From: Candidatus Cloacimonadota bacterium
GTDB lineage: Bacteria > Cloacimonadota > Cloacimonadia > Cloacimonadales > JAFGVF01
NCBI GenBank assembly: GCA_016838885.1
Contig: JAEKNW010000276.1
Coordinates: 1 to 38,373 of the forward strand
Length of the DNA: 38,373 nt
Direction of reading: 5' to 3'
How positions within the stretch are numbered: position 1 is the first letter of the stretch; each line of letters begins with the position of its first letter. The translations under genes were made by a program, and so were the position numbers. Positions 18,058 to 38,142 of the stretch are shown piece after piece. Below the pieces are notes generated by a model, which had not been told where the DNA came from, did not search any database, and saw only the letters and a program-made list of their open reading frames with translations.

Positions 18058-18816
18058 TCAGTTTCTTTTGTTGATTAACTCTCCGGCTATACTAATTGCA
18101 ATTTCATAAGGAGTATGTGATTTAATAGGCATCCCGATGGGACAACTTATCATATTAATCATCTCCAAAGAATTACTTTTACTTAGATGATTTTTTAATT
18201 CAATAGCTTTACTTTTACTTCCCATTATTCCCAAATATTTCCAGTTTAAACTAATTAATTGTTCTGTTACTATATTATCAAATTCATGACCATAAGTCAT
18301 AACTATAAGGTAATCTTCTGCAGTTATCTCAATATTTTTAGTAATATGATTAAAATCAGCATTGATAAATTTTGTATTTGCTGGATAATAGTCAGGATTA
18401 AGCCATTTATCTCTATCATCATAGATAAGCATATCGAAGTTCAAATTTGTAAGAATAGATGCCAATGCTTGAGCACAGTGTCCGGCTCCAAAGATAATAA
18501 CTCTCTCCCTGATATTTATCGGTTCAACAACCATTTCAATATCTCCACCGCATACCATACCAAGTTCTTCTTGCTGAGACAGAGTATAAGATAAATTAAG
18601 GAACTTCTTAGGTTGTTGATTTCTTATTGTATTGATTATCTGATATTCTAAGTTACCACCTCCAACTGTTCCGGATATTTCCTCATTATCTTTTTCAATA
18701 AGCATTTTCTGACCCAAGCTACCTGGAGATGAGCCTAATACTTTTGTAACTGTAACACTCCATCCACTTTTGTTATTTGCCAGTAAATCTGACAAATGTC
18801 TATAATAGTTTTTCAT
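18058..18816 (-). CDS. XdhC/CoxI-family molybdenum hydroxylase maturation protein
   Basis: VTVTKVLGSSPGSLGQKMLIE...GTVGGGNLEY...VIIFGAGHCAQALA...IMGSKSKAIELK...CPIGMPIKSHTPYEIAISIAGELI. Confidence 0.9.
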   Translation of the reverse strand: MKNYYRHLSDLLANNKSGWSVTVTKVLGSSPGSLGQKMLIEKDNEEISGTVGGGNLEYQIINTIRNQQPKKFLNLSYTLSQQEELGMVCGGDIEMVVEPINIRERVIIFGAGHCAQALASILTNLNFDMLIYDDRDKWLNPDYYPANTKFINADFNHITKNIEITAEDYLIVMTYGHEFDNIVTEQLISLNWKYLGIMGSKSKAIELKNHLSKSNSLEMINMISCPIGMPIKSHTPYEIAISIAGELINKRN

Positions 18817-19360
18817 TTTGGGGTAAATCTTCCTTTTTATTAATATTTGTTAGAATCCCTTCATCATTTACATTAACAATGCCCCTTCCCCACGCTTTAG
18901 TAAGTTCTTTTAAAGTATGATATTTATCAATGCTAGATGAAGCAGATTTAGGAAATAGAATAGGATGACCTAAGCGACCAGAGTGGGAAGGGACAATAAA
19001 CTTTTCATTTTTGCTGTGGTTTAGGAGTTGTTTTAGAGTCTCCACTTTAATAAAGGGATGATCAACAGGCCAGATAAGTAATTGTGAAAACTCTCCTATC
19101 ACTTTGATTCCTGTCAAGATTGAGTGGTACATCTCTTGAGAACTATCTCCGATAATCGTAGTATAATCACGATTCATGGGGATTAAATCATTAACTTGAG
19201 CATTCAGAACAGCATAGATATCTAAATTTAAGGAGAGACACTTAGAGACTATTAAGTCTAAAAAGGTCTCTCCCTGATAAGTAGCTAAAGCTTTGGACAT
19301 GCCAAATCTTTTACCGGATCCACCTGATAGGATAAGGACTTTTGGTCTATTTGAGTGCAT
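18800..19360 (-). CDS. MocA-like nucleotidyltransferase (molybdenum cofactor cytidylyltransferase family)
   Basis: KVLILSGGSGKRFGMSKALATYQGETFLD...WPVDHPFIK...PSHSGRLGHPILFPK. Start trimmed from ORF 19462 to Met at 19360, since the extra 34 aa overlap the upstream gene. Confidence 0.82.
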   Translation of the reverse strand: MHSNRPKVLILSGGSGKRFGMSKALATYQGETFLDLIVSKCLSLNLDIYAVLNAQVNDLIPMNRDYTTIIGDSSQEMYHSILTGIKVIGEFSQLLIWPVDHPFIKVETLKQLLNHSKNEKFIVPSHSGRLGHPILFPKSASSSIDKYHTLKELTKAWGRGIVNVNDEGILTNINKKEDLPQNEKLL

Positions 19361-20825
19361 CCAATAGCCCTGTTCGAGCATTAAATTCTTTAATATATTC
19401 ATCCCATTGATTAACTTGTGAATATTGGGAAGTCCAATAATCTTTTTGATACCATTGAGCATTTAACTCTTCAACAGTTTTACCTTGTTGTTCAATCCAG
19501 GTAAAGTATTTTAGGTTATGCATTCTTCTCTTGTCATAATAGGTCATTTCGATGATATTATCGGTTTTAACTCCCATAATATTCTTTTCAAAATGAATAT
19601 TTGCCATAACATTGTTGTAAGCACCTTGTTTTTCGCGATATTCAATCACTCTTGATTGATACATCTCCATTGAATCAGTAGCGACTGTGAAGAGATAATC
19701 ATTTTCGTCGTATTCATAATACTTAGCCATTTTGATGCAACCTAATAAATTTGCAATAGAGGATACACCTAGAAGATGGAGTTGATTTATTAGTTCTTCA
19801 TCAATGCCTTTTGCTTTGAGGAGTTGATGTCCTTCTTCTTCATTGAACAATCTCATTACATTAATAACATCATTGTCATCAACTGCAATAGCCATGTCCA
19901 TGTTTTTAATATTATGAATCCAAGGAACATGTTTATCGCCTATACCTTCGATTCTATGACCACCATAACCATTATATAACAAGGTAGGACATTGAGTTGC
20001 TTCACCGGCAGCTATTTTTAGATGAGGATATTGTTCTTTGAGATAATCTCCGCAACCTAGAGTACCGGCTGAACCTTGGGTTAAAAATAGACCTGACAGA
20101 GTCGCATTTTCACCTTTCATATTTTCAAATACTTCTTGCATAGCAGGACCTGTAACAGCATAGTGCCAGAGAGGATTACCAATCTCTGCAAATTGATTTA
20201 AATTAACAATCGTATCCCCTCTTTCGTGAAGAAGTTCTTTTGCTTTATCATATATTTCTTTAACATTAGATTCACAACCAGGAGTAGCAAAAACCTCAGC
20301 CCCAATCTCTTTCAACCAATTGAACCTTTCTGCAGACATCTCTTCAGGGAGAACAGCTATGGCATCACATCCTAATAAGGTAGAGTTGTAAGCACCGCCA
20401 CGACAATAATTACCTGTTGATGGCCACAGTGCTTTCTGAGTAGTTGGGTCAAAACGACCGGTAACCAATTTCTCTACTAATGGACCAAATGTTGCACCGA
20501 CCTTATGAGCTCCAGTTGGAAAGTATTTGCCAATAAGAATAACAATTGGACTTTTAACACCACTTAATTCAGGGGGAATTACGATATGATTAACACCTTG
20601 GAATCCTCCCCCAAATTTTGTAGGTTCGTTTTTCCAAGTTATTCTGAATAAGTTTAGGGGATTCAAATCCCATAGTCCTACATTCTTAAGTTTTTCTACT
20701 ATTTTCTCTGGAATAAGCTCTGGATTCCTCATTTGTTCATAAGTTGGGATAATGATATTTTTCTCTTTACAGCGTTGGATAGTATTTTCCAGTACTTTAT
20801 TTTCTTTTGGGGTTAAGTTCTTCAT
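19347..20825 (-). CDS. Fold-type-II PLP enzyme, TrpB-like active-site lysine motif; not an obvious YgeX
   Basis: GKYFPTGAHKVGATFGP (candidate PLP Lys), STGNYCRGGAYNSTLLGCDAIAVLPEEMS, TQGSAGTLGCGDYL. Confidence 0.7.
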   Translation of the reverse strand: MKNLTPKENKVLENTIQRCKEKNIIIPTYEQMRNPELIPEKIVEKLKNVGLWDLNPLNLFRITWKNEPTKFGGGFQGVNHIVIPPELSGVKSPIVILIGKYFPTGAHKVGATFGPLVEKLVTGRFDPTTQKALWPSTGNYCRGGAYNSTLLGCDAIAVLPEEMSAERFNWLKEIGAEVFATPGCESNVKEIYDKAKELLHERGDTIVNLNQFAEIGNPLWHYAVTGPAMQEVFENMKGENATLSGLFLTQGSAGTLGCGDYLKEQYPHLKIAAGEATQCPTLLYNGYGGHRIEGIGDKHVPWIHNIKNMDMAIAVDDNDVINVMRLFNEEEGHQLLKAKGIDEELINQLHLLGVSSIANLLGCIKMAKYYEYDENDYLFTVATDSMEMYQSRVIEYREKQGAYNNVMANIHFEKNIMGVKTDNIIEMTYYDKRRMHNLKYFTWIEQQGKTVEELNAQWYQKDYWTSQYSQVNQWDEYIKEFNARTGLLDALK

Positions 20826-20833
20826 TAAGTCTC

Positions 20834-22021
20834 CTAAAAACGATAATTTAAGTTATTTTGAATTTTGCTGATTATTTGTCCCGGTGAATCAAATCTTGTC
20901 AGAATCCCCATAGCAGCAATTATGAATGGTTTAAAACTTGCTTGGTGATAAGTTTCTCTTCTATACTCTTCAAAAACTTCTTTTGACACTTCTCCCTGTG
21001 AACAGCTAACATCTGTAATATCAGCAGGTAAGCAATGCATATATAAAGCTTTTTTATCTTTTGTTAAGTTCATTTTATCTCTATCACATTCCCAGTTAAC
21101 ATACTTTTTATTGTTAGCTAGACAGCTTTTCTCTAATTCATCAAGTCCAACTTTATCTTTAGCCATAAGAAGTTCTGTTCTCTCTTGCATTACTTGCATT
21201 GGAGCCCATGATTTAGGATAAACAATATCTGCACCTCTAAAGGCTTCTTCCATAGAATTCGTTATAGTGAACTTACTATTTGATTCTGATGCTACTTTTT
21301 GGGCGTATTCAATTTCTGAATCAAGTAGGTTATAGCCTTGAGGATGAGCTAAGGTAACATCCATACCCAAGCGTGGTAAGAGAGTAATGATGCCTTGAGG
21401 AACTGAAAGAGGCTTACCATAACTAGGAGAATAGGCCCAGGTCATAGCTACTTTTTTACCTTTAAGGTTGTCGAAACCTCCGAAGTAATCTCGTAATTTA
21501 CACAAATCAGCCATAGATTGAGTTGGGTGGTCGATATCACACTGAAGATTTATCAAACCTGGACGTTGGTGTAAAACACCTTCTTCATATCCTAAATCAA
21601 GAGCATCAGATACTTCTTGCATATAGGTATGTCCTTCACCAAGATACATATCATCTCGAATACCAATCATTTCAGCAAGGAAAGAGATCATATTTGCTGT
21701 TTCTCTAACTGTCTCACCATGAGCAATTTGAGATTTTACTTCATCTAAATCTTGGACACCTAAGCCTAGGGCATGAGCTGCAGAAGAGTAGCTAAATCTT
21801 GTCCTAGTAGAGTTATCTCTGAAAATGGAAATAGCTAAACCATTATCAAAAACTCTAAATGATTTATGGTTTTGGTGAATAAGTTTAAGCCAATTTGCCA
21901 GTAAAATTGTTACTTGAATATGATCAAAACTCTTATCTTTAGTGAGAAGAAAGTTTCTTCCATAATTATCAAATTTAAAATCCATTATTTTTTCAAATAA
22001 TTTAGTCATGTTTTCTCTCAT
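20834..22021 (-). CDS. ygeW: Knotted carbamoyltransferase YgeW family
   Basis: SIFRDNSTRTRFSYSSAAHALGLGVQDLDEVKSQIAHGETVRETANMISFLAEMIGIRDDMYLGEGHTYMQEV; DIDHPTQSMADL; MHCLPADI. Confidence 0.93.
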   Translation of the reverse strand: MRENMTKLFEKIMDFKFDNYGRNFLLTKDKSFDHIQVTILLANWLKLIHQNHKSFRVFDNGLAISIFRDNSTRTRFSYSSAAHALGLGVQDLDEVKSQIAHGETVRETANMISFLAEMIGIRDDMYLGEGHTYMQEVSDALDLGYEEGVLHQRPGLINLQCDIDHPTQSMADLCKLRDYFGGFDNLKGKKVAMTWAYSPSYGKPLSVPQGIITLLPRLGMDVTLAHPQGYNLLDSEIEYAQKVASESNSKFTITNSMEEAFRGADIVYPKSWAPMQVMQERTELLMAKDKVGLDELEKSCLANNKKYVNWECDRDKMNLTKDKKALYMHCLPADITDVSCSQGEVSKEVFEEYRRETYHQASFKPFIIAAMGILTRFDSPGQIISKIQNNLNYRF

Positions 22022-22029
22022 AAATACTC

Positions 22030-22488
22030 CTATTTATAAAATCTTTTAGCTGAAATAATAGAATCTACTATTTGCTGATAACCTGTACATCGGCAAAGGT
22101 TTATCTTTATGGCATCTCTCACTTCAGCTTCAGTGGGGTTATTATTCTTTAGTAATAATGCATGGGCTGTTAGCACCATACCCGGTGTACAGAAACCACA
22201 TTGAACAGCATCGTGATCTAGAAATGATTTCTGTAAGGGGTGAAGATCATTATTTTCTGACATGCCTTCTATTGTCAATAATTCTTTATCAATAATATCT
22301 GATACCTTCAATTTACATGACCGTTGAGGTTCATTATTGATTAAAACGGTGCAAGCTCCACATACCCCTATATTACAACCATTCTTGGTTCCGGTAAGGT
22401 TTAAATCCTCTCTGATAAAAGTTAGGAGTTGCTTATCTAAATCACATTTTTTTATTTTTATTTCTTTTCGGTTAATTATTGCTTGCAT
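22030..22488 (-). CDS. Molybdenum hydroxylase [2Fe-2S] subunit
   Basis: NGCNIGVCGACTVLINNEPQRSCK; QCGFCTPGMVLTAHALL; CRCTGYQQIVDSI. Confidence 0.95.
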   Translation of the reverse strand: MQAIINRKEIKIKKCDLDKQLLTFIREDLNLTGTKNGCNIGVCGACTVLINNEPQRSCKLKVSDIIDKELLTIEGMSENNDLHPLQKSFLDHDAVQCGFCTPGMVLTAHALLLKNNNPTEAEVRDAIKINLCRCTGYQQIVDSIISAKRFYK

Positions 22489-24716
22489 ATATCCTCCATC
22501 AACATAGGAAGTTTTTTCATTCTTCTTCCTGTAGCTCTATAAATTGCATTGGCTATAGCAGGTGATATTATTTCTAAAGCCGGTTCTCCGATACCCTTGG
22601 CTCCTGATGGAGTATTAGGATCAGGATTCTCAATAACAAAGTCATGAATCCTAGGTAATTCGTTTGCTCGATAAATTCTATACTTATGAAAGTTATCAGT
22701 AACAATATGACCATCTTCAATGATTAAATTCTCTTTAAGTGCCATACCTAAACCTTGAACGACACCTCCGTAAATTTGTCCGGACAAAAGACCTTTATTA
22801 ATAGCTTTACCAATATCATGAACAGCATAGATATCTAGAACTTTAAGTTTTTTAGTTTTCATATCAATCTCAATTTCTGCAACTTGAGCACTATAGACAT
22901 AGGTGAAATAAGCTTTTCCGGCTCCGCACTCTTCATCCCAAGTAACCGGTGGTGCTTCAAAGCTTCCAAAAGCATAGGGGTATGTGCAGTTTTGATACAT
23001 AATACTCATGGCTTCTTCCCAAGTTACACTTTTCTCGGAAGGAGAGATGAGTAAGTTATTTTGATAAATAATCTCATTAGGCTTACAAGAAAGTTTAGGG
23101 GCAATCACCTTATTAATTATGAGTTTTAACTTAGCAATAGCGTCCATTAAAGCTCCTCCCCCCATTAAAGTTCCGCGCGAAGCAACGGTTGTTCCACCAT
23201 CTGGGATTGAAGAAGTTGAAGAACGACGATACCTGATTTTTGAGAAAGGGAGACCTAGCTCTTTAGCTAATATATTTATCATAGCAGTTTCAGAGCCTTG
23301 ACCATTTTCATGAATGGAAACTTCTAACAAGATTGAACCATCAAACTGAACATTGATTATTGCTGATGTAAAGTCCTTACCTTCAGCACCTAGACTACAT
23401 CCGCGATAGGACATAGCTAAACCTATGCCATAGAGTTTGGAGTCATCACTCTTGCCATAAGAACACTTAGTTAACTTATCTGAATAATTACTTTCTTTGA
23501 TAACTTTATCCAAGACTTGATCTAAGGAGACAATGTGATTATCTAACTTTTGCTGAGATACAGTAATCGAATCTTGCCTAAGCATATTATTCTTTCTAAA
23601 AGTAATAGGGTCAAGACCTATTTTCTCCGCCAGAACTTCAACAATCTGTTCAATAGCAAAGTTAACTTGAGGTGAACCGAATCCCCTAAAAGCACCGGTA
23701 TAAACATTATTAGTATAGAAGGCTTTTACGTCAGTATAAACATGAGGAATAATATATGGACCACCACATTGAACTGTTGATCTCCAAGTAACCCAAGGTG
23801 AAACAGAAGTATAGGCACCTCCATCAGCAACAATATTAGCTTCCAAAGCGTGAATCTTGCCCTTTTTAAGTCCAATCTTGTAGTTCATCTTATAAGGATG
23901 TCTCTTATAACTCTCCTTTATGGACCATTCTCTGGTATAAGTCATTTTAACTGGTTTATTACAGAGCCAGGCAGCTAGGGCTGTACGAGCACAAACTATG
24001 GCAGCAGTATCATCTTTACCACCAAAGCCACCTCCCATAGGAATAGTAATTACTTCTATTTCAGAGAGTTTCTTACCTAAAAGAGCTGCTGTGAATCTTC
24101 TGCTACTGAAAGGATGTTGCATGGAGCCATAAACTTCAATAACTCCATCATCTCGAACTTGACATACTGCTGATTCAGGTTCTAAATAGCCATGTTCAAC
24201 AAAGTTAGTCTCATAAAAATCTTCTAGGATTATATCGCATTCAGCGAATCCTTTAACAATATCACCTTTGCGAACTTTATGGTGATTTATTAAATTTGAA
24301 TCATAAACATCATGTATCAAAATCTTATCTTTACTTGCTTCCTCAGTAGTTAATACAGAGGGTAACTTTTTATATTTTGCTGACACTTTTGCTACTGCTT
24401 GGAGAGCATTTTCGAGAGTATCAGCCACTATTAAAGCTATTACATCTCCCTCATATCTTATCTTATCATCAGCTAGAAGGGCGTAATCTTTTCTGATTTG
24501 TCCAAACTTCTTAACCCCTGGAATATCCTTTGCAGTAATTACTTTAACAACACCTGAACTCTTTTGGGCTGAATCTGTATTTATTTCAACAATCTCAGCA
24601 TGAATTTGATTTGAATAGACTGGCACACAATGAAGCATGTCAAATAATTTAATGTCATCAGCATACTTAGCCTTTCCTGTTACTTTGGCTACTCCATCAT
24701 TACGCCAGTTCATCAT
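22476..24716 (-). CDS. Molybdopterin-binding subunit of xanthine dehydrogenase-family enzyme (non-canonical active site)
   Basis: GKAKYADDI; VEHGYLEPESAV; MGGGFGGKDDTAA; TGAFRGFGSPQ; HENGQGSETAMINI; GAKGIGEPALEIISPAIANAI. Confidence 0.92.
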   Translation of the reverse strand: MMNWRNDGVAKVTGKAKYADDIKLFDMLHCVPVYSNQIHAEIVEINTDSAQKSSGVVKVITAKDIPGVKKFGQIRKDYALLADDKIRYEGDVIALIVADTLENALQAVAKVSAKYKKLPSVLTTEEASKDKILIHDVYDSNLINHHKVRKGDIVKGFAECDIILEDFYETNFVEHGYLEPESAVCQVRDDGVIEVYGSMQHPFSSRRFTAALLGKKLSEIEVITIPMGGGFGGKDDTAAIVCARTALAAWLCNKPVKMTYTREWSIKESYKRHPYKMNYKIGLKKGKIHALEANIVADGGAYTSVSPWVTWRSTVQCGGPYIIPHVYTDVKAFYTNNVYTGAFRGFGSPQVNFAIEQIVEVLAEKIGLDPITFRKNNMLRQDSITVSQQKLDNHIVSLDQVLDKVIKESNYSDKLTKCSYGKSDDSKLYGIGLAMSYRGCSLGAEGKDFTSAIINVQFDGSILLEVSIHENGQGSETAMINILAKELGLPFSKIRYRRSSTSSIPDGGTTVASRGTLMGGGALMDAIAKLKLIINKVIAPKLSCKPNEIIYQNNLLISPSEKSVTWEEAMSIMYQNCTYPYAFGSFEAPPVTWDEECGAGKAYFTYVYSAQVAEIEIDMKTKKLKVLDIYAVHDIGKAINKGLLSGQIYGGVVQGLGMALKENLIIEDGHIVTDNFHKYRIYRANELPRIHDFVIENPDPNTPSGAKGIGEPALEIISPAIANAIYRATGRRMKKLPMLMEDICKQ

Positions 24717-26038
24717 AGGGCATTTCCTTTGGGATTATTAATTAATATCTCGCCATCACTAACCACAAATTCACCACCCTTCATAACTTTGGATATATTT
24801 AATTTTGTAGTTATCTCTGAGTAAGGATTATAGATGCCTTCTCTGCCAGCTAGCGAATGTTCATTATCAAAATCAACTACTACTAAATCAGCTATTGAAT
24901 TTACCATAATAGCCCCTTTGTCGGGGTATAAGCCTGTTAAATGGGCGGGCTCTGCTGACAGTTTCTGTTGTAAAAACTTTGCTTTTTCAAAATCTCTTTC
25001 AAACAGATTGCTTGTTAGGTAGGGGATAAAGTCTAAACCACTTAAGCCACTGGGAGCTTTATCATAGAATCTTCGACCAATCATTTTTTGACTCTGGGTA
25101 AAAGGACAGTGATCAGAGGCAATAATATTGAAGTAGTTTAATTTGAAACCCTCTATTAATTTTGCATTGTTCTCTTTATCTCTTAATGGTGGAGTACAAA
25201 TGTATTGTTCACCATTTAGTTTTGAGTAATTTGTATTGTCTAAAAATAGATATTGAGGACATGTTTCACAGGTAACAAAGTTATTGTATTTAAGTTTGTT
25301 AATAACTTTCATTGCTTCAGCTGTAGAGACATGAACAATATGGAAATGAGCCCCTGTACGACGAGCTATCCTTAATATTTTATTAACAGCTGTAAGTTCA
25401 ACAGTTTTTGATCTAACTCTTACAAAATTGCTTAAACTGGTATCATTAGTCTTTATTGCTTTAGACCTTATCAAGTCATCGTCTTCGCAATGAACTAATA
25501 TCAAGATTTGTTGGTTAACATATTTTTTAGCAAATTCTTCTATCTCGTGATAGGAGCTATATATTCCTGCTTTTTTATAGGTTGTATAGAGTTTAAAGGT
25601 ACTAAAGCCTTCATCTATAAGTTCAGAGATTATTTTATGACTTTCATCATCAAATGTAGTGGGAGTAAGATGCCAACCAACATCACACCACAGATTCCCC
25701 TTGGCCTTTTCATGAGTTCTATTTACAGCATCTCTAAGAGTTTCTCCCTTACGTTGAGTTATGAAACTAAAGAGGGTTGTGATTCCACTTTTTAAAGCAA
25801 CACGAGTTCCTGAGTCATAATTATCTGCAATGGGAACTCCATTAATTTCATCATCCAGATGAACATGAAAATCTATAAAACCCGGAAGTACAAACTTGTA
25901 ATCAATGTCTATTTCTTCCCAACCAGTCTGTTTCTTAATTTTCTCAGCTATTTCCACTATGGTATCTTCATCAATTAAAATATCTCGATTAATGATTTGA
26001 TTATCACTAATCAAACTACAATTCTTTAATAATTTCAT
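24713..26038 (-). CDS. Dihydropyrimidinase/hydantoinase-family amidohydrolase (HyuA-like)
   Basis: VLPGFIDFHVHLDDEINGVPIADNYDSGTRVALKSGITT; STFKLYTTYKKAG; ILVHCEDDDLI; HIVHVSTAEAM; CETCPQYLFLD; IASDHCPFT. Confidence 0.9.
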   Translation of the reverse strand: MKLLKNCSLISDNQIINRDILIDEDTIVEIAEKIKKQTGWEEIDIDYKFVLPGFIDFHVHLDDEINGVPIADNYDSGTRVALKSGITTLFSFITQRKGETLRDAVNRTHEKAKGNLWCDVGWHLTPTTFDDESHKIISELIDEGFSTFKLYTTYKKAGIYSSYHEIEEFAKKYVNQQILILVHCEDDDLIRSKAIKTNDTSLSNFVRVRSKTVELTAVNKILRIARRTGAHFHIVHVSTAEAMKVINKLKYNNFVTCETCPQYLFLDNTNYSKLNGEQYICTPPLRDKENNAKLIEGFKLNYFNIIASDHCPFTQSQKMIGRRFYDKAPSGLSGLDFIPYLTSNLFERDFEKAKFLQQKLSAEPAHLTGLYPDKGAIMVNSIADLVVVDFDNEHSLAGREGIYNPYSEITTKLNISKVMKGGEFVVSDGEILINNPKGNAL

Positions 26039-26048
26039 CTCTCTCCAC

Positions 26049-27185
26049 CTAGTAATTTAAGATTGAATTCACATCTTTTAATCCATGTCCGGTCAACAAT
26101 AAAACTATTTGTTGATCCTTGTTAAGCATATATTTCTCTTCAAAAATCCCGGCAACAACTGCAGAAGATGGCTCACAAAATATCCCACTATTCCGGGCTA
26201 TTTCAAATTGAAAACCAACAATCAATGAATCATCTACTTCTATCATAAATCCATGACTCTCCCTGATTGCTCGTACTGCTAAATCAGCACAAGCCGGACT
26301 CTTAACAGAAATAGAATCAGCTATTGTATCAGCATGTTCCAGTGATTTATATTCTCCATTCTTCCAATAATTATAGATAGCATTTGATTTATTACTTTGT
26401 ACTCCGATTAATTTTGGTATTGAATTGGTTATTCCTAACTCTAAGAGGTCTTTAAAACCCTTATAAACTCCCGATAAAATTACTCCATCTCCAACAGGTA
26501 TAACAATATAAGCAGGTATTTTGTTATTGTTTTGTTGATAAATTTCTAGAGCTACACTCTTCTTCCCTTCAATCGTAATCGGGTTATAACCTGTATTACG
26601 ATTTAATGATTTACCATCAGCTGAGTAATCAATCGATAGTGCATAAGCATCATCATAGGATCCTTCAACTAAATCTAAATCAGCTCCATAAGCTATATTT
26701 TGAGCTCTTTTCCCTAAAGGTGCCTTAGCTGGGATAAAGATTTTTGCTTTAATATCAGTAGCTGCACTTATTCCTGCGAGTGAGCTTCCTGCATTCCCGG
26801 TAGATGCACAGACTATTTTATTTATATTGTGATGTTTTGCTTGAGCAAGAACCCAATAAGAAGCTCTATCTTTATAGGAACCTGTTGGATTTACTGTATC
26901 ATTCTTGATCCAGAGATTGAGATTATGTTTATTGCTTAATTTTTCAGCTTTAAAAAATGGTGTATTTCCAACTGGTATATTTGGTAAATCAGCTTTATCA
27001 TAGGGAAAGAAATTATTAATTAAGAGTTCTTTTTGAATGTTTTCCTTATCGGCTTGGTCATAGCAAATTTCTAAGACACCACTTAACTTATTGCCGGGAA
27101 CCCAATCTCTCCCACATTCATCGCATAAATAGTGGATATGTTCAATACTAAAATCTTTACCACATTCAGTGCATTTATATTTCAT
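26049..27185 (-). CDS. Threonine synthase-like fold-type-II PLP enzyme with N-terminal Cys4 zinc-ribbon-like motif
   Basis: MKYKCTECGKDFSIEHIHYLCDECGRDW; NPTGSYKDRASYWVLAQA; ASTGNAGSSLAGISAA; IPVGDGVILSGVYKGF. Confidence 0.82.
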   Translation of the reverse strand: MKYKCTECGKDFSIEHIHYLCDECGRDWVPGNKLSGVLEICYDQADKENIQKELLINNFFPYDKADLPNIPVGNTPFFKAEKLSNKHNLNLWIKNDTVNPTGSYKDRASYWVLAQAKHHNINKIVCASTGNAGSSLAGISAATDIKAKIFIPAKAPLGKRAQNIAYGADLDLVEGSYDDAYALSIDYSADGKSLNRNTGYNPITIEGKKSVALEIYQQNNNKIPAYIVIPVGDGVILSGVYKGFKDLLELGITNSIPKLIGVQSNKSNAIYNYWKNGEYKSLEHADTIADSISVKSPACADLAVRAIRESHGFMIEVDDSLIVGFQFEIARNSGIFCEPSSAVVAGIFEEKYMLNKDQQIVLLLTGHGLKDVNSILNY

Positions 27186-27218
27186 GTTACCTTCACTGCC
27201 TAGATATTTATTCTTAAT

Positions 27219-27252: not shown

Positions 27253-27288
27253 CCAAATCTATATTAGTCTAAATACTTGTCAATGAAT

Positions 27289-28149: not shown

Positions 28150-28153
28150 TTTT

Positions 28154-29356: not shown

Positions 29357-29357
29357 T

Positions 29358-30674
29358 TTACATTCTCTCCCATAATTTTTTTGCTAATTCACGTGAATGT
29401 TTATTTATTTGATGTTGATCAATAAAGTCTTCAAATTGATAATTATGCCATAGGATTTTGCCATTAGATATTGTGGTCTCAACGTTAGCTTCAGCAAGAC
29501 CAAAGACAATATGTCCCAGTACATTATCTTCATTTAGTGGGGTAATTGGATCGTAATCTAAGATGATTAAATCTGCATAACTACCCTCCTTGAGGATACC
29601 AAATTTATCGGTTTTCCAGAGTCTGTTAGCAATTTTGGCATTATTTTCTAAGAGGAGTGAAGATATTTCCATGAAACCACAGCTTGGGTTTTCCTGTTTA
29701 ATATGCTGAAGCCATAGAGCTATTCTCATCTCATTGCCCATTTTATTTGTCATAGCATCAGTTCCTAAACCAACTAGAATACCTTCTTTGATTTGACTTA
29801 AGACATCACTAATCCCCACTGCATTGTTAAGATTTGATTCAGGGTTATGAACAATAATCCCATCATTTTCTTTGATAATTTGTCTGTCTCTATCTGAAAT
29901 ATTAACACAATGGGCAAGAATTGAATCTTTATTAACAATCCCGAATTTTGCTAATCTTTCCACTACTGAAGTCTTATATTTTTCTTGAGCATCGACTTCA
30001 TCACCTTTATCTTCTGAAACATGAATATGATAACCATAGTTATTGACATTCTTAGCTACTATTTCTTTTAAAGTGGCATCTGATAGAGTAAAAGATGCAT
30101 GAAGTCCAATTAAAGCTACAATATCAGGATTTTTATTATCTTCAATAAAGGAGAAGTTTTCTAAGATACCCGCATCCTTGATATCAGCACCATCTCGGTC
30201 TGAAATCTCATAGCAGAGAGAAGCCTTAACTCCCATTCTCTCAACAGCTTTAGCGATTTCCGGTAAGGAGTTAGTGATGGCATAAGGGCTGGCATGGTGG
30301 TCGATAAAAGTGGTAACTCCATTTTTAATCCCATCCATGATAGCAGTTAAGGCACTATAATAGGTATCTTCTAGAAGTAACTGCTTGTCCAACCTCCACC
30401 ACATATTATTTAAAACTTCTACAAAGTTCTTAGAGGGATCAATACCTCCTATACCTTTAGCGAAGCTAGAATAGAAATGAGTATGAGCATTGATATAACC
30501 CGGCATTACAACTTTATTCTTGCCATCGATAACCCGGTCATATTCTGAATCAGCCAACACCTCATTACCTAGATAAGATATATATTTGTCTTCTATAACT
30601 ATATTACTGTTTGTCAATAACATATTACTATTATTTAAAGTAATTATTGTAGTATTTTTTATTAGAATTTTCAT
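29358..30674 (-). CDS. ssnA: SsnA-family amidohydrolase
   Basis: KVVMPGYINAHTHFYSSFAKGIG; FVEVLNNMWWRLDKQLLLEDTYYSALTAIMDGIKNGVTTFIDHHASP; HIHVSEDKGDEVDAQEKY; GLGTDAMTNKM. Confidence 0.9.
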   Translation of the reverse strand: MKILIKNTTIITLNNSNMLLTNSNIVIEDKYISYLGNEVLADSEYDRVIDGKNKVVMPGYINAHTHFYSSFAKGIGGIDPSKNFVEVLNNMWWRLDKQLLLEDTYYSALTAIMDGIKNGVTTFIDHHASPYAITNSLPEIAKAVERMGVKASLCYEISDRDGADIKDAGILENFSFIEDNKNPDIVALIGLHASFTLSDATLKEIVAKNVNNYGYHIHVSEDKGDEVDAQEKYKTSVVERLAKFGIVNKDSILAHCVNISDRDRQIIKENDGIIVHNPESNLNNAVGISDVLSQIKEGILVGLGTDAMTNKMGNEMRIALWLQHIKQENPSCGFMEISSLLLENNAKIANRLWKTDKFGILKEGSYADLIILDYDPITPLNEDNVLGHIVFGLAEANVETTISNGKILWHNYQFEDFIDQHQINKHSRELAKKLWERM

Positions 30675-33136
30675 TAGTTTCTAGCCTCCTCTTTAGTTCT
30701 TTCTCTCATAAACAAAGCTCCACTAAAACATTTCTGTACGCAGATAGAGCAACCGATACATTTTGTCGCATCTGTTTCCGGTATTTTATCATCATTGAGA
30801 CTTATAGCTAAGTATGGACATCTTGTGCAATTACCACAATGTTCACATAAATCAGAGTCAACATCAGATATTCTCTTAACCGGTGAAATATCCATAAAGT
30901 CTAAAATTGGTTCTGGTAAGGCTACTCCTATTAAATCATTGATAGTCTTCATCTTTCTTTCTATCATTAGATAGGCTATGCCATCTTCTAAATCTTGAAT
31001 AACTTTCACTCCGTCTTTCATTACAGCAGTGCAGAATTGAACTGTTTTACAGCCTAAAGCTAAGAAATCAGCTGCATCTTTGTAGTTCATAGTCCCACCA
31101 TTACCGGAGATAGTCAGTCCTACTGACCAAGCTTTTGATAAGGTAAGATTTGAGATATATTTAACGGCATCACCGGACATACCGACCATGATACCATCTT
31201 CCCACTCTTTCTTGGTATCTTTCCTAAAGGCAACACTTGGGAAGGAGTTAGCTAGAGTTATCCCTGCTTTCTTGTTTGGATATTTATTAAAGGTATCTTT
31301 GATAGCTTCCAAGATAGGGACTATAGAAGTTACAGCACCGGTTAGTTTGAAGAGTTTAGGAATATCAGGATCTGATACTTCTAAAACCCAATCGATTACT
31401 TTTGCTGTTAATTCAGCATTTTGGGAAACTATATCACCTTCAGTTCCATCTCCCCCTTGCGGACAAGATAGACTATACTCAACTCCATGAACTTTAGCAT
31501 GATCGATAAGTTTGGTATTGGCTTGCCAAACAGCCTTATCTTCTTCATCATGACCAGTTACAGGTCCTCCGGTTGAGACAATAGTTAATCTGTCCGGAAA
31601 CTCTCTGATAATATTATGGGCGTTTTCCAGGACTTTTCTTAAAGGGACTTCTGACACATTATCACAATTTGCATAAGTCTCATCATTGAATTCAAACATA
31701 TAATCATGAGGAATATGGATATCTAAATCATCGAAGGCTGTTTTCATAACAGCACCTGCCCAGCCTGCTTCATAAGCTTTTTTAACTTGTTCATAGCCAT
31801 CTGATGGTGGGGCAGCTGATAGGATAAAGGGAGATCTCATCTCTCTACCAAAGAAGTCTGCTTTGATAGAAACTTGGTCTTTGTAGATATCTCTTAAAGC
31901 AATTTTGGATTTGGTGTGTTTATCAAACTTTTCACTCTTACTTTCTATCCCGAACTTTTCCATAATTTCAACAGCACAATTTCTACCACTAGCCACAGCT
32001 TCAACAACTGTAGTAGCTGAATTCTTCATATCCCCACAGGTAAAGATCTTCTCATTAGTGAAATTGTTATCAAGGCTGACCTTACTTCCCACTGCGAATA
32101 CAATATAATCATAGAAATCTGAATGAAACTCAGTATTAGGAATCTTTTCTATTTTTGCTAAATCAAACTCTCGTCCTTTTAGTCTAACTCTCTGACAATG
32201 AAGCTTTAAACCATCATCATCTGATTCTATCTCTTTGACTATAGTCCGGAAGTAATTTCCAAAGTTATTATTAAGAAGTTCTTTTTGTTCTTTAGCATCA
32301 AGTCGCATTTCTGAAAGATTCTCTAAGGTGAAGAAGTCAACAGTTTGAGCATCACTACTAATTGCTTTCATACCACAATCCATAGCAACTGCTCCTCCCC
32401 CAATGATAGCACATTTTGCGTCAGGCTCTAAATTATCTAGGCTTAAAAAGGATTTCCAGTCGTGGGCCAACTCTTTACCATGGATATTTAGTTTAACAGC
32501 TTGATCTTGTCCGCTGGAGATTACTACTGCATCATACATTTTGGCAAATTTATCTAAATCAACTATATTTGTTTTGTTATAAACTCTAATATTTTCATGA
32601 TGCAAAGCAGTCTCTAAATCACTATTAAGCACGTCTTTGGCCAGTCTATATTCAGGAATAAATCTACACATACCCCCCAGGTTATCTTCTCTTTCAAAGA
32701 TATCAACAGTAAATCCGTAATGAGCTAGGATATTAGCACAACCAACTCCGGCAGGTCCTCCACCAATAATCCCTACTTTTTTCTTCTGACTTTCATATTG
32801 TTCAAATTGAGCTTTAAAGCCCAATTCTTTACTCTTTTGAATAATTTTAGCTTGTACGTCAGGGATTTTAATAGGGTTATCAAAAGTCTCTCTGGAGCAG
32901 GCTGCCATACAATGAAAATCAGGACAGACGGATCCGCAGATTCCACCTAAGATATTCTTTGAGAGAATAATAGTAGCTGATCTTTTGATATCACTATCCA
33001 ATCCGTTTTTAACAGCTTTAATAAACTCTGCCGGTGAACAGGAAACTGGGCAGGCATCCATACAAGGCATTTCTTCACAAAACAAACATCTATCAACTTC
33101 AGTTTGAAATTGAGCGTCAGTTAAAAATTTATACAT
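30674..33136 (-). CDS. Fused FeS/FAD/NADPH + PreA-like FMN TIM barrel + 2x[4Fe-4S] oxidoreductase (DPYD/PreT-PreA architecture)
   Basis: N-term RCLFCEEMPCMDACPVSCSPAEFI...GGICGSVCPDFHCMAAC; GIIGGGPAGVGCANIL; TIM barrel SPFILSAAPPSDGYEQVKKAYEAGWAGAVMKT, SLSCPQGGDGTEGD; C-term CEHCGNCTRCPYLAI and CIGCSICVQKC. Confidence 0.88.
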   Translation of the reverse strand: MYKFLTDAQFQTEVDRCLFCEEMPCMDACPVSCSPAEFIKAVKNGLDSDIKRSATIILSKNILGGICGSVCPDFHCMAACSRETFDNPIKIPDVQAKIIQKSKELGFKAQFEQYESQKKKVGIIGGGPAGVGCANILAHYGFTVDIFEREDNLGGMCRFIPEYRLAKDVLNSDLETALHHENIRVYNKTNIVDLDKFAKMYDAVVISSGQDQAVKLNIHGKELAHDWKSFLSLDNLEPDAKCAIIGGGAVAMDCGMKAISSDAQTVDFFTLENLSEMRLDAKEQKELLNNNFGNYFRTIVKEIESDDDGLKLHCQRVRLKGREFDLAKIEKIPNTEFHSDFYDYIVFAVGSKVSLDNNFTNEKIFTCGDMKNSATTVVEAVASGRNCAVEIMEKFGIESKSEKFDKHTKSKIALRDIYKDQVSIKADFFGREMRSPFILSAAPPSDGYEQVKKAYEAGWAGAVMKTAFDDLDIHIPHDYMFEFNDETYANCDNVSEVPLRKVLENAHNIIREFPDRLTIVSTGGPVTGHDEEDKAVWQANTKLIDHAKVHGVEYSLSCPQGGDGTEGDIVSQNAELTAKVIDWVLEVSDPDIPKLFKLTGAVTSIVPILEAIKDTFNKYPNKKAGITLANSFPSVAFRKDTKKEWEDGIMVGMSGDAVKYISNLTLSKAWSVGLTISGNGGTMNYKDAADFLALGCKTVQFCTAVMKDGVKVIQDLEDGIAYLMIERKMKTINDLIGVALPEPILDFMDISPVKRISDVDSDLCEHCGNCTRCPYLAISLNDDKIPETDATKCIGCSICVQKCFSGALFMRERTKEEARN

Positions 33137-35438
33137 ATAAACCTCTCTTTTTTATTTCTTCGATAGCCAACAAGACAGCTTCAGGTGTTGCCGGCATTTT
33201 TAAGTTTATTGATTCTGGTGATTTAGTTACATAACTAATGGCATTCATAATTGAGAACCATCCTGCTAAGCCATAGAGGAAAGGAGGTTCTCCCACAGCT
33301 TTTGAGCCTAAGACACTAGCTTGAGATCTCTCTTTATTGACTTGTTTAACAAGGAAATTTGAACAAACATCACTCATTGCAGGTATTTTATAAGTTGATG
33401 GGGTATTTGCCATACTTTCACCTTTTTCATTATATTTTACCTCTTCCATGGTACAATATCCTAAACCCTGAACTGTGGCTCCATATATTTGACCTTTATC
33501 AATTTCAGCATTTAGGGGAATCCCATTATCATGAACTACATAAATTGAATCTATTTTATAAGAACCTGTCAAGATATCAACTTCAGAAACCATAAGAGAT
33601 GCCCCATAAACGAAATAATAGAAAGGCCTTCCCTTGTTTGTGGTTTTATCAAAATCTATCAGAGGTGTCTTGTAAAAACTATGTTCTCCTAAATCAACTC
33701 TGTTCATATAGGCATAATGAGCCAGCTCTTTGAAGGTTAACGCCTTCTCGATATAACGTTTGGAGAATATTAAGTTGTTATCAAAGAGAACATCATCTAA
33801 ATCTACATTAATATCATACTTTTCTTTAAAGAGTTTTAAGGAAATCTCTGCCAAGCGGGCTTTTAAGTTTTCACTGGCTTGTCGCGCCGCATTACCGTTC
33901 AAGTCCGAACCTGAAGAGGCTGCAGTAGGTGAAGAATTTCCCACTCTTTTAGTATTAGTGCTTTCACTTCTCACATTATCCATGGTAATTCCTAAGCTTT
34001 CACAGACTACGGTTGCTACCTTGGTATAGAGTTGCTGTCCCATCTCTATGCCACCATGACTAAGGGAGATGGAACCATCCGAGTAAATCCAGATTAATGC
34101 TGAACCTTGATTAAGGAAAGTTGCTGTGAAGGAAATACCAAATTTACCGGTAACTATGCCTATTCCTCTTTTTCTATATTTATGATTATTATTAAAATCT
34201 GCTATCTCTGCTTTTAATTCTTGATAGTTAGATATTTCTTCTAAATCCTCTAACATCTCCAATCCTAATGCTTCTTGAACTTCCATCCCATACTGAGTAG
34301 TTTGGCCTAGCTGATAAACATTCTTTTTTCTGATATCCAATAAATCCATCTTTAGAGAGTAAGCAACTCTCTCCAAAGCAAGCTCAGTAGTTAAAATAGA
34401 TTGAGGAGCACCAAATCCTCTAAATGCTGTATTGGGAGGAAGATTAGTTCTATAGGCAGTACCTGTAATATTCATTTCCGGGATATAATAACCACTATCA
34501 GAATGAAGTAATGCTCTCTCTAAAATAGCAAAAGATAAATCAATATAAGCACCACCGTTAGCCTTAAGATCCAACTCATAACTTAGTAATTTACCCTCTG
34601 AATTATATTTTATCTTATAGCTGTTAACAAACTCATGACGTTTGCCTGTCCAGCTAATATCATCCTTTCTCTCTAAAGCTAGATAGACAGGTTTTTGGCA
34701 TATATAGCTGGCAATAGTTGCGATTCCTGCCCACAGGGTTGCTTGGGCTTCTTTCCCACCAAAAGCCCCACCTAATCTTCGGACATCAACAGTAATGTAA
34801 TTTGATGAGACTCCTAACAAGCGGGCACAGACTTCCTGCACTTCTGATACTGCTTGAGTTGAACTATAAACAGTGAAATATCCATTCTCCTCATTAGCCA
34901 CAAAACATCTCTGGGTCTCGAAATAGAAGTGTTCTTGAGCTCCAATAGTAAGATTACCTTGGAGTTCTCTTATATCATCCTTGGAGCAGGAGTCTATTCT
35001 TTGAAATAATCTTCTAGGACCATACTCACTCTTTGCCTGAACAGCATCATTTACTGTCAAGATAGGGATTTCTTCTTCATACTCAACTTTTATTTTTCTT
35101 GAAATGGCTATGGCATCTTCAAGAGTAGTAGCGACCACTATGGCAATTGGTTGGCCTACATAATTAACATCTTTGACTGCTAATAGAGGCTGGTTATCCC
35201 CATTACCATGGGCAATGTTATTTTCTCCTGGAATATCTTCATAAGTAATTAAGTGTTTAAAGTTGGGATTACTCTTGCTAGCTTCAGAATCAAGCTTTAT
35301 TATTTTTGCTTTAGCTTTGGAACTGACTACCGGGTAGGCGTAGAGACAATCTTTTGCTTGAAGAGCTATGTTTTCTACAAATGTAGATTTGCCTGTTAGG
35401 TGTAACTTCCCGGAAAGATGTTTAGAATTAACCTTCAT
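33129..35438 (-). CDS. Xanthine dehydrogenase, molybdopterin-binding subunit (canonical type)
   Basis: GAQEHFYFETQRCF; RLGGAFGGKEAQATLWAG; PPNTAFRGFGAPQ; GGIEMGQQLYTKVA; GSKAVGEPPFLYGLA; strong resemblance to bovine/Rhodobacter XDH active-site motifs. Confidence 0.93.
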   Translation of the reverse strand: MKVNSKHLSGKLHLTGKSTFVENIALQAKDCLYAYPVVSSKAKAKIIKLDSEASKSNPNFKHLITYEDIPGENNIAHGNGDNQPLLAVKDVNYVGQPIAIVVATTLEDAIAISRKIKVEYEEEIPILTVNDAVQAKSEYGPRRLFQRIDSCSKDDIRELQGNLTIGAQEHFYFETQRCFVANEENGYFTVYSSTQAVSEVQEVCARLLGVSSNYITVDVRRLGGAFGGKEAQATLWAGIATIASYICQKPVYLALERKDDISWTGKRHEFVNSYKIKYNSEGKLLSYELDLKANGGAYIDLSFAILERALLHSDSGYYIPEMNITGTAYRTNLPPNTAFRGFGAPQSILTTELALERVAYSLKMDLLDIRKKNVYQLGQTTQYGMEVQEALGLEMLEDLEEISNYQELKAEIADFNNNHKYRKRGIGIVTGKFGISFTATFLNQGSALIWIYSDGSISLSHGGIEMGQQLYTKVATVVCESLGITMDNVRSESTNTKRVGNSSPTAASSGSDLNGNAARQASENLKARLAEISLKLFKEKYDINVDLDDVLFDNNLIFSKRYIEKALTFKELAHYAYMNRVDLGEHSFYKTPLIDFDKTTNKGRPFYYFVYGASLMVSEVDILTGSYKIDSIYVVHDNGIPLNAEIDKGQIYGATVQGLGYCTMEEVKYNEKGESMANTPSTYKIPAMSDVCSNFLVKQVNKERSQASVLGSKAVGEPPFLYGLAGWFSIMNAISYVTKSPESINLKMPATPEAVLLAIEEIKKRGLYV

Positions 35439-36903
35439 TCATGGCCTCCTCTTTGAATTTCTCAAGATGCTTAATGACATGATTCCTGATTAAAATATGC
35501 CTATATTCTGAGCTTCCTCTTATATCACTTAGAGGAGTAAACTCTTGGGAAACCTTTTCTCCCAAATATTCTATATCTAACTCTTCTAGAGACTTTCCTC
35601 TTAATTCTAAAGCAATACTTAAAGCTAATTTCGGATATGGAGCCACTCCTCCAAAAGCAAATCTGGAGATATTCATCTTCCCCTTATCATATTCAATATA
35701 ACAGAAAGAACAAACAGAAGAGATATCTAAAGTCTTACGTTTGGCACTCTTTTCAAAACTATAAAAGCACTTATCTTGAAGGGGGATAATAATCTCTTTG
35801 ATAAACTCGTGATGCTTGAGTACAGTCTCCTTGTATCCTTTATAAAATTGGTCAATCGAGACTTCTCTCTCCCCATCTTCTCCAAAGAGAATTAATCTGG
35901 CATTTAAACCTATCAAGGAAGTAGCACAATCTCCTACCGGTGAAGCATTTCCAACATTCCCCCCGATAGAAGCTATGTTTCTAATTTGCTTAGAAGCCAT
36001 CTGAGAAACTACTTCTGCCAAAATGGGTAACTTGTCGCTTATTAATCTATTAGTTCTTATTGTTTCTAAGGTAACTGATGCCCCAATTGTTATATACTTA
36101 TCATCAGCTTTGACAGTTGTTAATTCCGGGATATAAGTAATATCCAAATAGTTCTTGAAGTAGCTTCTTCTCAAGTTGCCTACCACATATAAATCAGTGG
36201 CACCGGCAACTACTTTTATAGTCCCACTCCCCTTAAGTTTCTTTATTATCTCTTGATATTTAGCTAAAGACTTGATTAAATAATATCCTTCAACCCCTCT
36301 CCCACCTTGACTTTTCTCAGCAAAATTTAAGTTAAATGTTTTGTTCAAATCCGCTAATTTCTTATTACCTTCAAGAAGCTTCTTAGGTAAGATTTTATCT
36401 TGATGTTCACTAAAATAATTTATTATCTCCAGAGCTCCTTGGATAATATGGACATAACCTGTACAACGACAGAGATTACCATTTAAGGCTTCTCTTAACT
36501 CCTCTTCATTATACTCACTGTTCTCAGCCAGATAAGCAAAAATAGACATCACTATCCCCGGAGTACAAAATCCACACTGAGTACTATAATTATTATAGAG
36601 AATTTCTTGAATAGGGTGTAATTCAGAGTCTTTGCAGGTTAACCCCTCCACTGTAATTACATGCTTGTTCATTATCTTCTCAGCAGGATACAAACAGGAG
36701 TTTATGGCCTTGAATAACGGCTTATCCTCCTGATACTCTACAAGAGTTACTGTGCAGGCACCACAATCCCCTTCATTGCAGACACTTTTTGTGCCGTTTA
36801 AGTGATAGCTATCTCTTATAATCTCTAAAAGAGTAGTCCCAGGACTTATCTCTAAACTTTTCAATTCACCATTCAAAACAAATTTAATAATACTTGTCTG
36901 CAT
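35428..36903 (-). CDS. Xanthine dehydrogenase FeS + FAD subunit
   Basis: NEGDCGACTVTLVEYQ; TQCGFCTPGIVMSIFAYL; LNGNLCRCTGYVHIIQGAL; VVAGATDLYV; QIRNIASIGGNVGNASPVGDCATSLIGL. Confidence 0.94.
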   Translation of the reverse strand: MQTSIIKFVLNGELKSLEISPGTTLLEIIRDSYHLNGTKSVCNEGDCGACTVTLVEYQEDKPLFKAINSCLYPAEKIMNKHVITVEGLTCKDSELHPIQEILYNNYSTQCGFCTPGIVMSIFAYLAENSEYNEEELREALNGNLCRCTGYVHIIQGALEIINYFSEHQDKILPKKLLEGNKKLADLNKTFNLNFAEKSQGGRGVEGYYLIKSLAKYQEIIKKLKGSGTIKVVAGATDLYVVGNLRRSYFKNYLDITYIPELTTVKADDKYITIGASVTLETIRTNRLISDKLPILAEVVSQMASKQIRNIASIGGNVGNASPVGDCATSLIGLNARLILFGEDGEREVSIDQFYKGYKETVLKHHEFIKEIIIPLQDKCFYSFEKSAKRKTLDISSVCSFCYIEYDKGKMNISRFAFGGVAPYPKLALSIALELRGKSLEELDIEYLGEKVSQEFTPLSDIRGSSEYRHILIRNHVIKHLEKFKEEAMNEG

Positions 36904-36921
36904 AAATTCTCTCTTTCTGTC

Positions 36922-38142
36922 TTATATTGTTACTTTCTTACCACTTATATAAACTTCCTCTACAGCATCCTTGCCTCTGACAAAGATCAGCTCAGACAAA
37001 AGCTCTTGAATCGTCTGTTGCGGATTTATATTCAAGACTAATAAATCAGCCTCTTTCCCAATTTCTATATTTCCAATAATATCATCTTTTGAAAGCACTT
37101 TAGCATTGCCCAAGGTAGCCAAATAGAATAACTCTTCAACTTCTATAGAATAGTCCAATTGCATATAGTTAGCCATTCTCATCTGATAAAACATATCTAA
37201 TGATGTTCCACCTGCTACATCTGAGCCTAATCCGAGAGTGAGATTATTGTCAATAAGTTTTTTATAGGGGAATCTGCCAGATTTCAAAAAGAAGTTTGAA
37301 TCCGGACAATGAGCTATCTTGGTATTACTATTTTTCATTAGCTCTAACTCCTTATCATCTAAGTGAATTACATGAGCCATTATGGTTTTTGGTCCTAAAA
37401 GATTGGCCCGGTAATAGACATCTGTATATGATTTAGCTTCAGGAAAAAGTTTTTTTACCAAGGCAATTTCATTATGATTCTCAGATAAATGGGTCTGAAT
37501 ATATTTATCATTCTCTTGTGCATAATTTCCAATCTTACTCATCAAGTTACTGCTACAAACAGGAGCAAAACGGGGAGTGAAAACATAATTTAAGAGACCC
37601 TTCTTATCCCACTGTTGACATAATTCAACAGATTCATTAAATGATTTATCTGTATTTTCTATTAAGCCTGGAGGAGTATTTTGATCCATACAAACCTTGC
37701 CGATCAAGGCTCTTATCGAAATTTTGTCAGCTTCTTCAAAAGCGATATTAGTTGCTTTTTGAGAACTTGTTACATAGATAGATGCAGTAGTAGTACCAAC
37801 TTGAATTAAATTCTTAAAAAAGTCCTGAGCAACATTTTGAGCATAATCAGGATTATTTAACTTCTCTTCTTCAGGAAAGGTATAAGTGTTAAGCCAATCC
37901 AGTAAATCACTCTTGTATCTCCCCCTAATTCTCCACTGGGATAAATGAACATGAGTGTCTATTAAACCGGGGATTATCACCTTATCACTCTTATCAATAA
38001 TTTCTATCTTAGTGCTGTTAAATTCCTGAGATGAAACAATATCCTTAATAATATTATTATCTATTGTAATTATAACATCCTTGAGATATTCACATTTTTT
38101 CTCTGATACAGGATTCAAGATGTTACACTTTATATATTTCAT
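36922..38142 (-). CDS. guaD: Guanine deaminase-like amidohydrolase
   Basis: VIIPGLIDTHVHLSQWRIRGRYKSDLLDWLNTYTFPEEEKL; VGTTTASIYV; GKVCMDQNTP; FTPRFAPVCS; QTHLSENHNEI; AHCPDSNFFLKSGRFP. Confidence 0.88.
   Translation of the reverse strand: MKYIKCNILNPVSEKKCEYLKDVIITIDNNIIKDIVSSQEFNSTKIEIIDKSDKVIIPGLIDTHVHLSQWRIRGRYKSDLLDWLNTYTFPEEEKLNNPDYAQNVAQDFFKNLIQVGTTTASIYVTSSQKATNIAFEEADKISIRALIGKVCMDQNTPPGLIENTDKSFNESVELCQQWDKKGLLNYVFTPRFAPVCSSNLMSKIGNYAQENDKYIQTHLSENHNEIALVKKLFPEAKSYTDVYYRANLLGPKTIMAHVIHLDDKELELMKNSNTKIAHCPDSNFFLKSGRFPYKKLIDNNLTLGLGSDVAGGTSLDMFYQMRMANYMQLDYSIEVEELFYLATLGNAKVLSKDDIIGNIEIGKEADLLVLNINPQQTIQELLSELIFVRGKDAVEEVYISGKKVTI

Follow-up and report, generated by a model that had tools for sequence, protein, structure and literature searches.

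In 2025, a reductive pathway of uric acid degradation was described for Escherichia coli and Clostridioides difficile (PMC12507026; comment in PMC12990295). According to PMC12507026, XdhD reduces urate to yanthine, and the yanthine ring is in turn reduced by YgfK or, in C. difficile, by UacX. SsnA and HyuA account for ring opening, YgeW (UacY in C. difficile) together with YgeY for removal of the ureido groups, and YgeX converts diaminopropionate to pyruvate by elimination. The replacement of YgfK by a DHO_dh-type UacX in C. difficile is thus already published, and a luciferase-family reductase has been reported for Chloroflexota (PMC12507026). In the neighbourhood survey of the same study, any PF00291 protein was scored as YgeX. 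Here, a 15-gene operon is analysed which lies on a contig of 38,373 nucleotides from Candidatus Cloacimonadota bacterium (GCA_016838885.1, JAEKNW010000276.1). The window is this entire contig (C276), part of an assembly of 3.34 Mb that is 99.3% complete. The operon is a variant of the characterised pathway and not a novel pathway. With a probability of about two in three, it would serve the reductive, O2-independent degradation of guanine, xanthine and urate, with a threonine synthase (ThrC)-like enzyme, ThrCl, as the lyase and a cysteine synthase (CysK)-like enzyme, TrpBl, as its partner.

Comparison of the operon with the described pathway

The 15 open reading frames (ORFs) at 18058-38142 all lie on the minus strand and are spaced by short gaps or overlap. 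This arrangement had been noted in the initial annotation, a model's reading of the sequence alone, and was confirmed by the ORFs and by the identities obtained with hidden Markov models (HMMs). The proteins were identified by HMM searches against curated (equivalog) cut-offs and Pfam, and by pairwise identity to the E. coli proteins. GuaD, SsnA, YgeY and YgeW score over their curated cut-offs, in agreement with the divergent anaerobic purine/urate cluster that was initially proposed, while the remaining operon proteins were placed at superfamily level. The gene order xdhS-xdhL-DPD-ssnA-ygeY-ThrCl-hyuA-Mo2-FeS-ygeW-TrpBl-mocA-xdhC is repeated in the related genome G029, where the stretch read stops inside xdhS, and relatives G001 and G013 match it within reach of their short contigs. 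Since the gene order recurs in these three relatives, the cluster is not due to chance. The guaD gene is located 231 bases from the contig end on its upstream side, and the operon may therefore be truncated at its 5' end.

The E. coli set consists of xdhD-ygfM, ygfK, ssnA, hyuA, ygeW, yqeA, ygeY and ygeX (PMC12507026). SsnA, YgeW, YgeY and GuaD are shared over cut-off, and a hydantoinase, two molybdenum (Mo) hydroxylases and Mo maturation genes are also present as in E. coli, with a carbamate kinase elsewhere in the genome. Unlike in E. coli, a dihydropyrimidine dehydrogenase (DPD)-type enzyme occupies the YgfK position and the second Mo enzyme has no adjoining FAD subunit. Moreover, the operon carries ThrCl and TrpBl but no ygeX, and both ygeX and the carbamate kinase gene are found at other loci. 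A DHO_dh-domain enzyme for YgfK and a Mo enzyme without FAD partner are likenesses to the C. difficile variant; however, the operon keeps YgeW and has no UacY, and C. difficile uses YgeX (PMC12507026). In addition, C. difficile UacX has no FAD domain, whereas the DPD-type enzyme of the window has one.

Each step of the pathway has a counterpart, or at least a candidate, in the window. The route proposed here takes each substrate and reaction by inference from the published biochemistry of E. coli and C. difficile. GuaD would deaminate guanine, and xanthine dehydrogenase (XDH, 33129-36903) would oxidise xanthine to urate, which the second Mo enzyme (22030-24716) would then reduce to yanthine. 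The conversion of xanthine to yanthine could be redox-neutral, with two electrons gained from xanthine oxidation and two used in urate reduction. The DPD-type, NAD(P)H-dependent enzyme (30674-33136) would reduce the yanthine ring, after which opening of the pyrimidine ring is expected from SsnA and that of the imidazole ring from the hydantoinase. The two ureido groups would be removed by YgeW, through carbamoyl transfer to phosphate, and by YgeY, through hydrolysis. ATP could be recovered by the carbamate kinase, which is encoded on contig C2 and is 48% identical to E. coli YqeA. Finally, ThrCl would convert 2,3-diaminopropionate to pyruvate and ammonia, alongside a genuine YgeX from another locus, and TrpBl, a conserved partner in the pathway, probably has diaminopropionate or a beta-N-substituted alanine as its substrate.

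ThrCl, TrpBl and the last step of the pathway

ThrCl (26049-27185) is a pyridoxal 5'-phosphate (PLP) enzyme of the Pfam PALP family and the best candidate for a second diaminopropionate ammonia-lyase. It falls below all ThrC cut-offs, with 156 bits vs 167 for TIGR00260 and lower scores still for the other ThrC models, and it reaches 42 bits against the diaminopropionate ammonia-lyase model, the cut-off of which is 276. ThrCl proteins from TrpBl loci were compared with four solved ThrC enzymes. Asn154, Ser155 and Arg160, the ligands of the substrate phosphate in the numbering of Thermus thermophilus ThrC, are all replaced in ThrCl and related cluster members. VNSVNPxR of ThrC reads RNT[AG]xNPx in ThrCl, with small variations, and the GNAGN loop has become GDG. 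The resulting signature, RNT[AG]xNP..EGKK plus PVGDG, is uniform among cluster members. ThrCl forms one clade apart from ThrC, YgeX and OrtB (a 2-amino-4-ketopentanoate thiolase subunit), with a support of 97/94 without and 96/96 with the haloarchaeal rows. Its predicted structure has the ThrC fold (predicted local distance difference test score of 91; best PDB matches), and the PLP lysine motif is also common to both. Based on motif, cut-off and clade, an identity as ordinary threonine synthase was rejected. YgeX is likewise a fold-type II PLP enzyme of the PALP family, and the two alternate beside TrpBl; however, they are about 23% identical over a short stretch, and ThrCl has STGN instead of TDGNHG. 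ThrCl probably represents a new lyase family.

A PALP search of the genome returned three proteins, two of which belong to the operon while the third is encoded on contig C43. The C43 protein is a genuine YgeX, with 524 bits vs a cut-off of 276 and 47% identity to the E. coli protein, and the idea that YgeX is absent from the genome was rejected on this score. The initial claim that the YgeX slot had been replaced therefore holds for the operon, which has ThrCl and TrpBl and no ygeX, but not for the genome. The C43 ygeX gene (locus L144:6012-9657) adjoins a Septu-like PtuA/PtuB defence pair amid copies of a dispersed repeat, and these surroundings suggest that it was acquired separately.

Across genomes, ThrCl and YgeX alternate. 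In 59 relatives of the same order, ThrCl is found in 38 and TrpBl in 37, but YgeX over cut-off in only four, one of which has an interrupted copy. YgeX is lacking in 36 of the 38 ThrCl-positive relatives. Thirty-five of the 37 TrpBl-positive relatives have ThrCl, and the remaining two (G034 and G040) have YgeX instead (Fisher p = 0.0045, indicative). Next, 37 further genomes, mostly of other phyla, were reached via named loci. ThrCl is present in 34 of these, two of which also have YgeX. Two pathway-bearing genomes without ThrCl, those of L119 (Bacteroidetes) and L135 (Aminicenantes), have YgeX (p = 0.026, indicative), and a third ThrCl-negative genome (L125) has no YgeX either. Overall, YgeX occurs in 4/4 of the TrpBl-positive, ThrCl-negative pathway-bearing genomes vs 3/69 of the ThrCl-positive ones. 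The exchange can also be seen between single loci, with YgfK-TrpBl-YgeX in L119 and YgfK-TrpBl-ThrCl in the Bacteroidales locus L118.

TrpBl (19347-20825) is a PLP enzyme of 492 aa. The label 'TrpB-like' that it was first given had to be dropped, as its best models are cysK (E = 2e-31), no TrpB model is among the matches, and its best predicted folds are of the CysK/cystathionine beta-synthase (CBS) type, with N- and C-terminal additions. OrtB, a fold-type II PLP enzyme of about 475 aa and thus similar to TrpBl in length, was also considered and rejected; the TrpBl profile misses OrtB, with no match at E<=1e-3 in five OraS loci, and ThrCl alone is weakly similar to it. Among GTDB contigs, at least 578 relatives of TrpBl were confirmed. 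TrpBl accompanies either ThrCl or YgeX in the purine loci of several phyla, and elsewhere it stands alone, beside carbamoyltransferase and carbamate kinase genes (L109) or, by eye, beside an amidinotransferase-like gene (L101 and L102). Homologues with 42-43% identity are encoded on legume-symbiont plasmids of Rhizobium (L141) and Bosea (L142) near a gene for a TauE-type exporter, and the Bosea locus also has RidA, a broken ygeX and a broken M20 gene, hinting at the breakdown of plant diaminopropionate-type amino acids. Taken together, these neighbourhoods suggest diaminopropionate or a beta-N-substituted alanine as the substrate of TrpBl. In four Cloacimonadota clusters (L042, L043, L048 and L078), the neighbours of TrpBl include a carbamate kinase and two or three different carbamoyltransferase paralogues.

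Several points weigh against the interpretation given above. All enzyme activities are predicted, and the HyuA-like protein and both Mo enzymes score below the equivalog cut-offs. No equivalent of Glu606 of E. coli XdhD is seen in the second Mo enzyme, as the region does not align; as a marker of urate dehydroxylases, this residue is therefore uninformative here, and C. difficile XdhD is likewise divergent. The genome has YgeX in addition to ThrCl, as do a few other genomes, and in one Bacillota locus (L277) ThrCl, TrpBl and YgeX are encoded together. The interpretation assigns no reaction to TrpBl. Moreover, the genomes compared are related metagenome-assembled genomes (MAGs), a few of which may have been counted in both sets; the Fisher tests therefore treat them as more independent than they are.

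In view of the YgeX on C43, the ordinary pathway might run with this enzyme, with ThrCl and TrpBl as biosynthetic passengers, i.e. the genome's own threonine and cysteine synthases. That the genome has three PALP proteins in all, leaving no other threonine or cysteine synthase of this family visible, would fit such a case. It is nevertheless unlikely, because the whole ThrCl set has other residues in place of the three phosphate ligands and the GNAGN loop, most ThrCl-positive relatives (36/38, as given above) do without YgeX, and ThrCl and TrpBl occur in purine loci across many phyla, ThrCl also in plasmid clusters of haloarchaea. A division of labour in which TrpBl is the terminal lyase and ThrCl has another job appears quite improbable. 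TrpBl does belong to the CysK/CBS type, a family that eliminates beta-substituents of alanine, and is found in nearly all of these clusters; however, it is retained beside YgeX in loci without ThrCl (L119 and L100), haloarchaeal clusters have ThrCl and no TrpBl in the stretches read, and it is with ThrCl and not with TrpBl that YgeX alternates.

The same logic might also be directed at another N-heterocycle of the pyrimidine, hydantoin or nicotinate type, urate being incidental. The DPD-type reductase and the hydantoinase are similar to enzymes of reductive pyrimidine degradation, and the substrates of the second Mo enzyme are not readable from its sequence. Purines are indicated, however, by GuaD, by an XDH with the canonical triad and by SsnA, YgeW and YgeY over cut-off, and the FMN domain of the reductase differs from that of pig DPD at pyrimidine-contact positions such as N668, E611 and T737; this explanation is very unlikely. 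Purine degradation with ThrCl as the lyase is the preferred reading. A wider claim, namely that ThrCl founds an undescribed family of diaminopropionate lyases that terminates reductive urate degradation in haloarchaea as well as in many phyla, with TrpBl performing a further PLP step, is given an even chance.

Plasmids of Natrinema, Haloarcula and Haloterrigena (L312, L313 and L314) encode proteins with the annotation 'threonine synthase' that fall in the ThrCl clade and carry its signature, which was read directly in the Natrinema protein. Their neighbours include SsnA-like and HyuA-like amidohydrolases, an LLM-class flavin-dependent oxidoreductase, a D-aminoacylase, a Zn-dependent hydrolase and a 2Fe-2S/Mo hydroxylase, to which the Haloarcula locus adds an NCS2 nucleobase symporter and BMP-type ABC transporters. 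Neither YgeX nor TrpBl is found in the haloarchaeal stretches read, where ThrCl would be the sole PLP lyase. These clusters look like the reductive urate pathway in its F420/UacY form, seemingly complete. We know of no report of this pathway in haloarchaea. Archaea are not mentioned in PMC12507026, nor are threonine synthase and cysteine synthase. No paper was found with both 'diaminopropionate ammonia-lyase' and 'threonine synthase', while an earlier mention in Liu et al. (2023, 2025) or Kasahara et al. (2023) is possible.

Reductive urate degradation is new and medically relevant (gout, hyperuricaemia), and its reach has so far been judged by Pfam domains. A lyase of the ThrCl family would have been overlooked in the published survey because any PF00291 protein was counted as YgeX there. 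If ThrCl is the second lyase, genomes scored as YgeX-positive or as lacking the last step need to be read again, two PLP protein families gain a testable function, and the pathway would reach Cloacimonadota, Bacteroidota, Neomarinimicrobiota, Chloroflexota and probably haloarchaea. From the plasmid clusters of haloarchaea, it would seem to be more than a gut adaptation.

The DPD-type enzyme in the YgfK position

The candidate yanthine reductase (30674-33136) is a protein of 820 aa with the Pfam domains Fer4_20, Pyr_redox_2 and DHO_dh and a C-terminal 4Fe-4S domain. This corresponds to the domain order of mammalian DPD (Fer4_20, FAD/NAD(P)H, FMN barrel, C-terminal 4Fe-4S). Pig DPD is its best solved relative (E = 2e-42), and the Ser-Cys-Pro active-site motif is kept, as in DPD and bacterial PreT-PreA. 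In contrast to these enzymes, it belongs to an operon with ssnA, its close homologues share 28% identity with PreA, and the contact positions are changed; in the alignment of the FMN domain E611, N668 and T737 of pig DPD, presumably in contact with the pyrimidine, are replaced by D, S and S, respectively. Close homologues are present in relatives G029, G001 and G013. The FMN part is 61-67% identical to homologues in G029 and in an Anaerolineae MAG (L134). Clostridial DHO_dh proteins encoded next to ssnA share only 26-29% identity with it; they are called UacX-like here from that position and are not the named C. difficile UacX sequence. An orthology with clostridial UacX is not supported at this identity.

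YgfK itself was not found in the genome, where the best match has 324 bits vs a cut-off of 835. Given this absence, the differing contact positions and the low identity to the clostridial proteins, the enzyme is, at the sequence level, a third type next to YgfK and UacX. The replacement of YgfK seen here is therefore of an already published kind and of a separate type. Many other Cloacimonadota clusters carry YgfK-type proteins with 44-47% identity to E. coli YgfK, so the DPD type is not a rule for the phylum. In the Bacillota locus L281, separate PreA-like and GltD-like genes beside ssnA form a two-gene version of the fused enzyme.

The initial annotation was right that the YgfK slot is filled differently. 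Genuine ygfK and ygeX elsewhere in the genome would have spoken against it, and ygeX was indeed found and ygfK was not. Its mention of different folds could not be maintained, as the replacement has YgfK-like parts (Fer4_20, FAD/NAD domain and FMN barrel), and YgeX, ThrCl and TrpBl are all fold-type II PLP enzymes of the PALP family. Since the folds are the same, the expected change in chemistry is not supported either, and the succession of ring reduction and diaminopropionate beta-elimination has more likely been kept than rewired.

Remaining genes and surroundings of the operon

GuaD, a guanine deaminase (36922-38142), reaches 409 bits with TIGR02967 (cut-off 375) and is 41% identical to E. 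coli GuaD. The XDH small subunit (35428-36903) is a fused 2Fe-2S and FAD protein (Pfam Fer2, Fer2_2, FAD_binding_5 and CO_deh_flav_C) with 389 bits for TIGR02963, below the cut-off of 467. The Mo subunit (33129-35438) lies slightly below its cut-off (TIGR02965, 778 bits vs 849) and retains all three canonical active-site motifs, GGKE, FRGFG and GEPP. SsnA (29358-30674) scores 516 bits with NF005540 (cut-off 444). YgeY (28154-29356), an M20-type ureido hydrolase, scores 531 bits with NF009555 (cut-off 321) and YgeW (20834-22021), a knotted carbamoyltransferase, 611 bits with NF005538 (cut-off 453), with 50% and 59% identity to the E. coli proteins, respectively. The HyuA-like hydantoinase (24713-26038) has 278 bits for TIGR02033, below the cut-off of 393, and 27% identity to E. 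coli HyuA.

The Mo subunit of the second Mo hydroxylase (22476-24716), the candidate urate-to-yanthine dehydroxylase in the role of XdhD, is PucD/XdhA-like and below all cut-offs, and reads GGKD where XDH has GGKE. Its 2Fe-2S subunit (22030-22488) matches Pfam Fer2_2, and no separate FAD subunit adjoins it in the operon. Maturation may be served by a MocA-like molybdopterin cytidylyltransferase (18800-19462; PF12804; TIGR03310 with 68 bits, below cut-off), the true start of which is probably about 100 bases inside the listed ORF start, and by an XdhC-like Mo hydroxylase maturation factor (18058-18816; PF13478; NF045664 with 196 bits, below the cut-off of 350). The remaining ORF (27289-28149) encodes an outer-membrane beta-barrel-like protein with a weak DUF3078 match (PF11276, 24.4 bits, below the cut-off of 25). 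Its first ATG overlaps ygeY; judging from the signal-peptide-like MKKILFIALVTVLLG, the start may lie near 28149. As this gene is missing from the syntenic operons of G029, G001 and G013, it is probably an insertion specific to the window.

No known RNAs, including riboswitches, were found in the window. A dispersed repeat of about 170-190 bases is present at 1-109, 11789-11900 and 38184-38373, i.e. at both contig ends and in the interior, with several copies on two further contigs of the genome (L143 and L144). The contig breaks are probably due to this repeat, which may be an element like a miniature inverted-repeat transposable element (MITE). A hybrid histidine kinase (14775-17966), encoded on the same strand 92 bases past the downstream end of the operon, has a dCache sensor domain and could sense purines or end products. 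Further along, at 6787-10550, two adjacent ChaN/Tiki-like genes, one with a long C-terminal extension, look like a tandem duplication.

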